Of a stretch of DNA of 64,000 nt, positions 20,694-56,262 are shown in pieces. The first letter of the stretch is position 1, and each line of letters begins with the position of its first letter. The position numbers and the translations under genes were made by a program. The notes below the pieces were generated by a model, which ran no database searches, was not told the origin of the DNA, and saw nothing but the letters and a program-made list of their open reading frames with translations. Source of the stretch: Chloroherpetonaceae bacterium (GTDB taxonomy: Bacteria > Bacteroidota > Chlorobiia > Chlorobiales > Chloroherpetonaceae). The DNA lies in contig JANQGG010000034.1 of NCBI GenBank assembly GCA_028277445.1, positions 1 through 64,000 on the forward strand, given 5' to 3'.

Positions 20694-21572
20694 ATGAATA
20701 TTAATAACCCCCCAATATTTATTATTGGTAATCCTCGTTCAGGTACGACTTTATTACGTCTAATGTTATCAAGTCATAAAAATATTGTTATCACACCAGA
20801 GTCTGGTTTTTCAATATGGCTATATCCTTTATATAAGGATTGGATACCAAAACAGTTATCAAGAAAAGATAAGTTAATTGACGCTATTTTGAAGTCAAGA
20901 AAGTTTGAAACATGGGGATTGGGAAAAGTTGAAATTGTTGAAGAAGTTAATTATAAAGATCCTCAGAATTATGTTGAGTTTATGAGCTGTATATACGAAC
21001 TATATGCAAAAAAAATAAAAAGAAGTTATAAAAGATGGGGTGATAAAAACGGATTTTACATCAAATGTCCTGAGGTTATAAAATCCGTTTTTAAAAATGC
21101 CATTTTTATTCATATTGTGAGAGATGGAAGAGATATAGCATGTTCTTATAAAGAGTTAATGAAAAGAGATATTGATAGTATGTATAAACCAAATTTAAGT
21201 ACCGATATAATGAGCATAGCTAAAGAGTGGAGTAATAATTTGTTTCATGCTAAAAATGTATTTGATAGTATGAATTCATCTGATCACATGACAATAAAAT
21301 ATGAAGACTTATTGTTAAATAACGAATCAACATTATTGAAAATATGTTCTTTTATAGGTGAATGTTATGATCCAAATATGAGTAATTATTATGTTGAAAA
21401 TAAAGTAAAGTCTCTTGAACCTTTAGATTTTATACAATGGAAGGAAAAAACTTTGTTACCCATTCAGAAAGATAATGTGGGAAAGTATAAGAAAGAATTG
21501 TCAAAAGTGGAGATTTATGAATTTGAAAAATATGCTCAAAACTTTTTAGAAATGTACAAATATATAAAATAA
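20694..21572 (+). CDS. Sulfotransferase-family protein
   Basis: This 292-residue protein has the PAPS 5'-phosphosulfate loop PIFIIGNPRSGTTLLRLMLS (loop residues about 12-19). A matching 3'-phosphate-binding region (IHIVRDGRDIACSYKE) lies near residue 140, both diagnostic of the sulfotransferase superfamily. It would transfer sulfate from PAPS to a sugar hydroxyl on the lipid-linked unit or precursor, in the cytoplasm. PAPS could come from the cysC/cysD/cysN cluster about 24 kb downstream. A second, distinct sulfotransferase lies at 33537. It follows the methyltransferase by 9 bases. Immediately after it the locus breaks down into relics and insertion sequences. Confidence 0.85.
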   Translation: MNINNPPIFIIGNPRSGTTLLRLMLSSHKNIVITPESGFSIWLYPLYKDWIPKQLSRKDKLIDAILKSRKFETWGLGKVEIVEEVNYKDPQNYVEFMSCIYELYAKKIKRSYKRWGDKNGFYIKCPEVIKSVFKNAIFIHIVRDGRDIACSYKELMKRDIDSMYKPNLSTDIMSIAKEWSNNLFHAKNVFDSMNSSDHMTIKYEDLLLNNESTLLKICSFIGECYDPNMSNYYVENKVKSLEPLDFIQWKEKTLLPIQKDNVGKYKKELSKVEIYEFEKYAQNFLEMYKYIK

Positions 21573-54604: not shown

Positions 54605-54704
54605 GGATTTTTCATATAAATTTTGGGCATATGGGTCCTTACTATTGTTACCCTTTTGTTAGGTAAAAGGTTCATTTTTAAATAAAAAATTTAAATATGG
54701 TTTG

Positions 54705-54755
54705 AAATGAACATATGTTCATTTATATTATTTTTTAATGAACATATGTTCATTA
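54705..54755. promoter_or_regulatory. Twin perfect palindromes, probable DUF134 operators
   Basis: The 16-base palindrome ATGAACATATGTTCAT occurs twice, at 54707-54722 (extends to a perfect 20-mer, 54705-54724) and 54738-54753 (extends to a 20-mer, 54736-54755). The centres are 31 bases apart, close to three helical turns. The pair sits directly ahead of the DUF134 helix-turn-helix gene (ATG at 54776), which suggests autoregulation. Two homodimers on one DNA face would fit the spacing. The divergent dehydrogenase gene starts at 54604 and may also be affected. Confidence 0.8.
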
Positions 54756-54775
54756 TAAATGATTCATTAATTTTT

Positions 54776-55237
54776 ATGCCAGGTCCATATAGACGACGAC
54801 GAATCCAAGGACTTCCAAAATGCCAGGGATTTAAGCCAGCAGGAAAAGCAGCCAGAAATCTTGATACTCAAATACTATCATTGGATGAGTACGAAGCAAT
54901 TCGTTTGGCGGATTTTCTAAAGTTAGACCACCATGAAGCTGCGACGAAAATGGGCATATCTCGCCCGACATTCACTCGGCTTATTGAAAAAGCTCGTCAC
55001 AATGTGGCCTCAGCCTTGGTTGAAGGCAAAGAGCTAGTCATTGGCGGTGGCAATATTGATGTTACGATAACAACATATCGTTGCAAAACATGCGGCGGTA
55101 TGCAGGATAAAAATACGGGTGTGAACCTAAAGGACTGTCCGGCATGTGGATCTGAAAACTTGGAAAATATGATGGATCATTTTCTGAAGCATCAAGCCTC
55201 GGAACAGTTTCGAAAGAGGCGTAGAAGAGGTGATTAA
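54776..55237 (+). CDS. DUF134-family helix-turn-helix regulator
   Basis: This 153-residue protein belongs to the DUF134 (UPF0251) family. From the ATG at 54776 it starts MPGPYRRRRIQGLPKCQGFK, the family's usual start. The frame is also open from 54707, but that ATG is inside the palindrome. A sigma-70 region-4-like helix-turn-helix lies at about residues 35-75 (LDEYEAIRLADFLKLDHHEA; ATKMGISRPTFTRLIEKA). A zinc-ribbon-like tail has CKTCGG and CPACGS (two CxxC pairs). The family often sits beside NifX-like and ferredoxin genes, as here. It probably binds the palindromes upstream and controls the following three genes. The signal it senses is unknown; the zinc ribbon may help. Confidence 0.85.
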   Translation: MPGPYRRRRIQGLPKCQGFKPAGKAARNLDTQILSLDEYEAIRLADFLKLDHHEAATKMGISRPTFTRLIEKARHNVASALVEGKELVIGGGNIDVTITTYRCKTCGGMQDKNTGVNLKDCPACGSENLENMMDHFLKHQASEQFRKRRRRGD

Positions 55238-55260: not shown

Positions 55261-55554
55261 ATGCCATTAGGAGATGGAACAGGGCCATATTGGGCAAAAC
55301 GAGTTGAAACGAAGCAACACTTAAATCAAGGTTGTGGTTCAGGCCAAAAAAGAAGTTTTTGGTGTGGTTTTGGATCAAGCCGAGGTGATCGAAAGGATCA
55401 AGGATTCCGACGTCGCATAGAACAAAATCATCGTTTTGGGAATCAAAATCCGCAATATATCTCGCAAATGAATGATCTCGTAGCCCTGAAACATGAAATT
55501 TCAAAGTTAAAATCAGGTTTAAATGAAAATCAGCCCCAGCATAAAAATAAATAA
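55261..55554 (+). CDS. DUF5320-like small Gly-rich protein
   Basis: This 97-residue protein starts MPLGDGTGPYWAKRVETKQH, close to the MP-GDGTGP start of the DUF5320 group of small proteins found near DUF134 and NifX-like genes. It has three Gly/Arg/Cys-rich stretches (GCGSGQKRSFWCGFGSSRGD) with two cysteines, and a C-terminal helix (MNDLVALKHEISKLKSGLNE). The function is unknown. It begins 23 bases after the DUF134 stop with the ribosome-binding-type AGGAG at 55250-55254. An Fe-S or metal link is suggested only by context. Confidence 0.7.
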   Translation: MPLGDGTGPYWAKRVETKQHLNQGCGSGQKRSFWCGFGSSRGDRKDQGFRRRIEQNHRFGNQNPQYISQMNDLVALKHEISKLKSGLNENQPQHKNK

Positions 55555-55578: not shown

Positions 55579-55953
55579 ATGAAAGTTGCTGTTGCATCGG
55601 ATGATGGAAAAACTATAGCTGAACACTTTGGACGAACGCAAGGATTTATCATCTATGACATTTCTGAAAAAGGGGAAATCGTTTCTAAAACGTATCGTCA
55701 AAACAATCATACCCATCATATGCAAGGTCATCATGACGATCATACTCATGGGCATGACCATGGTCCGATATTAGGATTGCTGAAAGATGTGCAAGCGGCA
55801 GTATCGCGGGGTATGGGTCGTCGAATTTTGTATGATCTCGATGATGCCGGTATCAAACCCTTTATTGTAACTGTTACGGATGCGGATGAAGCGTTAGAAA
55901 AGTATTTGCAGGATCAGTTGGAGAGTGATTTAAACCGACAATGTAATCATTAA
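55579..55953 (+). CDS. NifX/NifB-like iron-molybdenum cofactor-binding-fold protein, His-rich
   Basis: This 124-residue protein has the dinitrogenase Fe-Mo cofactor-binding fold. MKVAVASDDGKTIAEHFGRT is the classic start, GPILGLLKDVQAAVSRGMGR the middle and ALEKYLQDQLES the end. Inserted at residues 44-61 is a stretch with nine histidines (QNNHTHHMQGHHDDHTHGHD), which may bind Ni, Zn, Fe or another metal. No nif genes are visible, so this is the stand-alone type common in non-fixing bacteria, thought to be an Fe-S or metal carrier of unclear role. It is followed after 23 bases by a ferredoxin gene. Confidence 0.87.
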   Translation: MKVAVASDDGKTIAEHFGRTQGFIIYDISEKGEIVSKTYRQNNHTHHMQGHHDDHTHGHDHGPILGLLKDVQAAVSRGMGRRILYDLDDAGIKPFIVTVTDADEALEKYLQDQLESDLNRQCNH

Positions 55954-55973: not shown

Positions 55974-56207
<234 letters not shown>

Positions 56208-56234: not shown

Positions 56235-56262
56235 AAAAAGGGTGAGGCAATTCACCCTTTTT
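56235..56262. terminator. Bidirectional terminator between ferredoxin and radical SAM genes
   Basis: AAAAAGGGTGA (56235-56245) pairs with TCACCCTTTTT (56252-56262) around a 6-base loop. The T run on one strand and the A run on the other allow termination in both directions, serving the two convergent genes. Confidence 0.9.

Follow-up and report, generated by a model that had tools for sequence, protein, structure and literature searches.

Twin palindromes upstream of a DUF134 gene in a green sulfur bacterium: candidate operators of a probably autoregulated metal-cluster operon

The DUF134 operon and its upstream palindromes

The window (the whole 64,000-nucleotide stretch of DNA analysed here) belongs to a green sulfur bacterium whose genome encodes a member of the Fenna-Matthews-Olson protein family (PF02327, E 5.7e-214). 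Between 54776 and 56207 it carries a compact operon of four genes that encode a DUF134 protein, a DUF5320-like protein, a NifX/ORP-like protein and a YfhL-type ferredoxin (Table 1). The first product is a member of the family known as DUF134, UPF0251 or COG1342; it scores 82.7 bits against the PF02001 profile (cut-off 27) and, in an alignment of 71 sequences, carries the family signature LDEYEAIRLAD together with SRxTFxR. DUF134 is present in a single copy in this genome. The assignment of the second gene product to DUF5320 is weak in the window, and a strong DUF5320 match adjoins DUF134 in two relatives (L006 and L017). The third product is similar to MrpORP and to the C-terminal part of NifB, and its His-rich insert, NNHTHHMQGHHDDHTHGHDHG, suggests metal binding.

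Table 1. Features of the DUF134 operon and its upstream region (window coordinates)
Feature	Position	Strand	Details
Predicted sigma-70 promoter, TTGAAA-16-TATATT	54702..54729	+	-35 at 54702-54707, -10 at 54724-54729
Putative operator site 1, AAATGAACATATGTTCATTT	54705-54724	.	perfect 20-bp palindrome; fills the predicted promoter spacer
Putative operator site 2, TAATGAACATATGTTCATTA	54736-54755	.	perfect 20-bp palindrome; over the expected transcription start
DUF134 regulator, 153 aa (gene 1)	54776..55237	+	PF02001, E 2.9e-23
DUF5320-like small protein (gene 2)	55261..55554	+	weak match, 21.5 bits (cut-off 27)
NifX/ORP-like protein with His-rich insert (gene 3)	55579..55953	+	Nitro_FeMo-Co, PF02579, E 2.4e-16
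YfhL-type 2[4Fe-4S] ferredoxin (gene 4)	55977..56207	+	NF033683, 102 bits, above cut-off
Terminator-like hairpin at the operon end	56235..56262	+	between convergent genes

Comparison with relatives places the conserved DUF134 start at ATG 54776. This start has no clear Shine-Dalgarno sequence, in which respect the next two genes differ. A longer in-frame start, ATG 54707, lies inside the first palindrome and is not the conserved one; automatic annotation could wrongly choose it.

The initial annotation of this region described a perfect palindrome that occurs twice directly before the regulator gene, 31 bases from centre to centre, and both 20-bp sites and the exact distance of 31 bp were verified. 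The two sites share ATGAACATATGTTCAT (54707-54722 and 54738-54753). They are the longest perfect palindromes in the 64-kb window, where no other perfect palindrome reaches 18 bp and the runner-up is a single 16-mer. Frequent occurrence elsewhere in the genome had been named beforehand as an observation that would speak against a specific operator. The 14-bp core TGAACATATGTTCA has two exact copies in the 3,422,714-bp genome, both at the DUF134 promoter, where about 0.04 would be expected by chance genome-wide from the base composition (36% GC). The sole one-mismatch copy falls within a gyrA-like reading frame (named from its translation) and a two-mismatch match at window position 21337 falls inside another reading frame, so that no further targets were recognised in this genome among the one- and two-mismatch copies. 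The spacing had also been noted as close to three helical turns. That holds in the window as a distance; as a conserved or meaningful feature it was rejected, since in relatives the distance between twin sites ranges from 16 to 60 bp and shows no helical phasing.

The best promoter match in the region, TTGAAA-16-TATATT, agrees with the consensus at 10 of 12 positions, although by itself a match of this kind does not exceed chance expectation for the region. The placement of site 1 within the -35/-10 spacer is a geometry that is also seen in relatives.

Occurrence of the palindrome at other DUF134 genes

A scan of other DUF134 loci for the palindrome had been proposed as a check, with its absence there counting against the operator reading. 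DUF134 genes came from 51 contigs identified by sequence and, in addition, from searches of genomes in the phylum of the window and in two other classes, and the counted set comprised 262 non-redundant DUF134 upstream regions in which the central hexamer CATATG was scored within 120 bp of the gene start. The hexamer is present in 118 of the 262 regions; dinucleotide shuffles give 11.8 +/- 4.1, and the control region from -240 to -120 gives 13. CATATG is alone in this behaviour, as the next-best palindromic hexamer scores 35 where shuffles give 25. For 108 sites, at least 6 of 9 positions in the 18 bp around the centre agree with the reverse complement. The core is nearly constant while the arms differ by group (TGAAC, TGCAC, TGGGC/TGAGC, TTRGC, TGTGC, YGAC [CGAC/TGAC] and TGCTC); in the TGCTC-arm group the centre is often CATTTG. 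The consensus sequences of the groups place the palindrome between TTGNNN-like and TATNNT-like elements. A relative from the same family as the window (L070) keeps one imperfect site, ATGAACATAAGTTCAA.

It is hardly credible that the palindromes act as RNA, for example as a hairpin attenuator or 5'-UTR structure, or that they are chance AT-rich inverted repeats. Site 2 would be close to the transcript's 5' end, where it could form an RNA hairpin, but site 1 precedes the expected start, and a hairpin has no need of central CATATG letters that are conserved across phyla. A chance origin is at odds with two perfect 20-bp palindromes that are unmatched in the 64-kb window.

About 120 of the 263 DUF134 genes have no recognised site, which weakens the operator reading; many of these are second copies or members of Clostridial operons. 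Many Chlorobiales (L057-L086 and others) have a second DUF134 copy that begins with MKNxRAGRP and has no CATATG operator of its own. Such second copies and the Clostridial operon members may be regulated from elsewhere.

The number of sites per genome was determined with the pattern TKRGCATATGCYMA in 21 genomes; an earlier genome-wide pattern, TWRKSCATATGSYMAWA, was badly designed and was discarded. Fifteen of the 21 genomes have a match, exactly one each, and comparison of coordinates places 14 of the 15 at the DUF134 promoter. A stray site in G205:C26 runs into the beginning of an unrelated gene, identified by eye as ribbon-helix-helix-like. Since nearly every match lies at the DUF134 promoter and there is one per genome, DUF134 appears to be a dedicated local autoregulator rather than a global one.

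Six plasmid loci lay outside the survey set and thus served as an out-of-sample comparison. The DUF134 genes on plasmids of Klebsiella, Citrobacter, Proteus and Dongshaea have two CATATG sites just upstream in all four cases, 23-30 bp apart. Plasmid loci of Treponema and Peptoclostridium have twin TGAC-type sites. The first four loci (L296, L297, L298 and L299) carry a DUF134-NifX module with the twin CATATG sites; a PaaI-type thioesterase is present in three of the four modules and Dps in one, and two of the plasmids are typed as conjugative. A DUF134-like match was found in 189 plasmid records, 17 of them from Escherichia, and no phage relatives were found.

The predicted DUF134 fold and covariation of its recognition helix with the half-site

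The predicted structure of the window protein has a mean pLDDT of 89.1. Its modelled helices 36-47, 52-59 and 63-83, where pLDDT exceeds 90, form a helix-turn-helix (HTH) fold that is followed by a beta-rich, zinc-ribbon-like CxxC..CxxC part. A resemblance to sigma factor region 4 had been suggested from the sequence, and the model agrees with it, as the predicted HTH superposes on region 4 of sigma factors (5uxx and 5fgm) with 0.6-0.8 A over about 50 residues. DUF134 relatives also give weak Sigma70_r4 matches in Pfam. MCM N-terminal domains, the top Foldseek matches, were discounted as fold relatives (rmsd 9-10 A), and a sequence search of solved structures returned no DUF134 structure. The recognition helix is predicted to begin at residue 63 of the segment S62-R63-P64-T65-F66-T67-R68, which places P64, T67 and R68 at the helix start. 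In the family the helix follows the pattern S-R-x-T-F-z-y, where x is alignment column 63, z is column 66 and y is column 67.

Among 96 protein columns, the highest mutual information is found with y for half-site position -6, with x for position -5, and with x and then z for position -4. Because shared ancestry inflates mutual information, a tree of DUF134 sequences was built without the helix and was used to count branches with simultaneous changes in a site letter and a residue. The pair of -5 and x changes together in 7 of 12 site changes (P 5e-6, rank 1). The pairs of -6 and y (P 1.3e-3) and of -4 and x (P 8.6e-3) also rank first, each from few events. A stricter test on matched sister pairs, likewise with few events, is no more than suggestive, with P values from 0.0016 to 0.1. 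When the half-site of a locus is predicted from loci that are less than 50% identical, the prediction is right in 52 of 70 cases if the x, z and y residues are the same and in 10 of 70 if they differ.

The pattern of residues and letters looks chemically sensible. At position -6, Arg at y goes with G, Asn with T (A on the other strand) and Glu or Asp mostly with C; at position -4, Gly at z goes with G and Thr or Ser with A. The Klebsiella, Citrobacter, Proteus and Dongshaea plasmid loci have the helix SRQTLAN (Q at x and N at y) with TTGGC/TTAGC-type half-sites, several of them one letter off, which parallels the QxN class of Chlorobiales, and the TGAC-type sites of the Treponema and Peptoclostridium plasmids are those expected for TxA and TxK helices. 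A class with His at x (helix SRHTFGR; L170-L195 and L247-L274, relatives of a Humidesulfovibrio genome) has TGCTCATTTGAGCA sites, and its main group has the non-palindromic centre CATTTG.

The covariation of protein and site is the strongest evidence on which protein binds. Together with the one-site-per-genome behaviour it strongly implies that DUF134 itself binds the palindromes directly. It is very unlikely that another, global regulator (Fur-like, Crp/Fnr-like or other) is the binder and that DUF134 is one target among others. Many regulator families bind palindromes of about this length, and the window by itself does not name the binder. However, 14 of 21 genomes have a single site located at DUF134, the genome of the window has just two, no other DUF134 columns covary with the half-site as strongly as those of the helix, and the site travels with DUF134 onto enterobacterial plasmids.

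Proposed autoregulation and comparison with known systems

The most probable reading, to which we assign a probability of roughly 0.87, is that the twin palindromes are operators for the protein product of the downstream DUF134 gene and that this protein, when bound, blocks RNA polymerase, resulting in negative autoregulation of the four-gene operon. The initial annotation had proposed such an autoregulated operator pair, and the conservation of CATATG in 118 of 262 upstream regions, the covariation with the helix and the single site per genome argue for it. Residues 62-68 of the recognition helix (SRPTFTR) would read the half-site TGAAC, with two DUF134 subunits reading the two arms of each palindrome; the symmetry of the sites points to binding as a dimer. 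With site 1 in the -35/-10 spacer and site 2 over the expected start, bound DUF134 would exclude RNA polymerase from the promoter. Repression is the outcome we infer from the normal length of the spacers and from the position of the sites over spacer and start. The targets of this negative autoregulation would be the genes for DUF134 itself, the DUF5320-like protein, the NifX/ORP-like metal-cluster protein and the ferredoxin.

It is also conceivable, and on balance unlikely, that the palindromes are DUF134 operators from which the protein activates transcription, perhaps through a MerR-like change of promoter shape exerted from the spacer. The location of site 1 in the spacer is that of MerR sites, and DUF134 proteins are similar to sigma region 4, a part of sigma factors that contacts RNA polymerase. 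The spacers, however, are 16-17 bp, near the normal optimum and not of the long MerR type; the second site often lies over the -10 element or the start, consistent with blocking; and the Clostridial TTGACATATGTC type of palindrome itself contains TTGACA.

The signal would probably be the state of a metal or of an Fe-S/Mo cluster. We hypothesize this because many relatives have a NifX-like domain, presumed to bind a cluster, either within the DUF134 chain or encoded by a nearby gene. DUF134 is fused to the Nitro_FeMo-Co (NifX-like) domain in Clostridial relatives, and in the other loci examined the NifX-like domain is encoded close to DUF134. Loci with such a fusion are L053 (4001-4852) and L055 (4001-4876), and by eye also L141, L054 and L050. 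This arrangement suggests that a cluster-binding NifX-like protein, or its cluster, is sensed. A more general proposal is offered tentatively, at somewhat less than even odds: DUF134 proteins may be widespread single-target autoregulators of ORP/NifX-type operons in which three helix residues set three operator letters around an almost invariant CATATG core and the fused or neighbouring NifX-like domain senses a cluster of the Mo/Fe-S type. On this view the carrier of the cluster would control its own synthesis.

COG1342 has already been given as a predicted DNA-binding helix-turn-helix domain (PMC3622292). The literature searched, that outside subscription journals, gives no operator, target or role for DUF134, which is once listed as without known function; UPF0251 occurs there in a mutation table, and the palindrome sequence itself is absent. 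Under the present proposal, a domain with no assigned function that occurs in many anaerobes and on plasmids of enterobacteria would become a specific, testable regulator for which operator, target and residue-to-base code are predicted. The proposal would also make NifX/ORP-type metal-cluster operons, which are poorly understood, more accessible by indicating the relevant promoter and regulator protein.

The HTH of DUF134 superposes closely on sigma factor region 4, but DUF134 differs from sigma factors in several respects. It has no region 2 (a Pfam scan of the window protein gave no match to that region), it is paired with a symmetric palindrome and not with a -35 element, and it bears a zinc-ribbon-like or NifX-like C-terminal part. 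A second likeness is to the ORP (orange protein) complex. The operons of DUF134 relatives encode ParA/MinD-like ATPases with two ferredoxin motifs together with NifX/ORP-like proteins, a composition that matches Orp3, Orp4 and Orp8 of the Desulfovibrio vulgaris orp operons (PMC6345978). The operon in the window has the NifX/ORP-like protein of this type (Table 1), and MinD-like ATPases with ferredoxin motifs, present in the operons of relatives, are absent between its promoter and its terminator-like hairpin. The D. vulgaris orp operons are transcribed from sigma-54 promoters and have a cognate regulator (PMC6345978), whereas the candidate regulator here is DUF134 and the predicted promoter is sigma-70-like.
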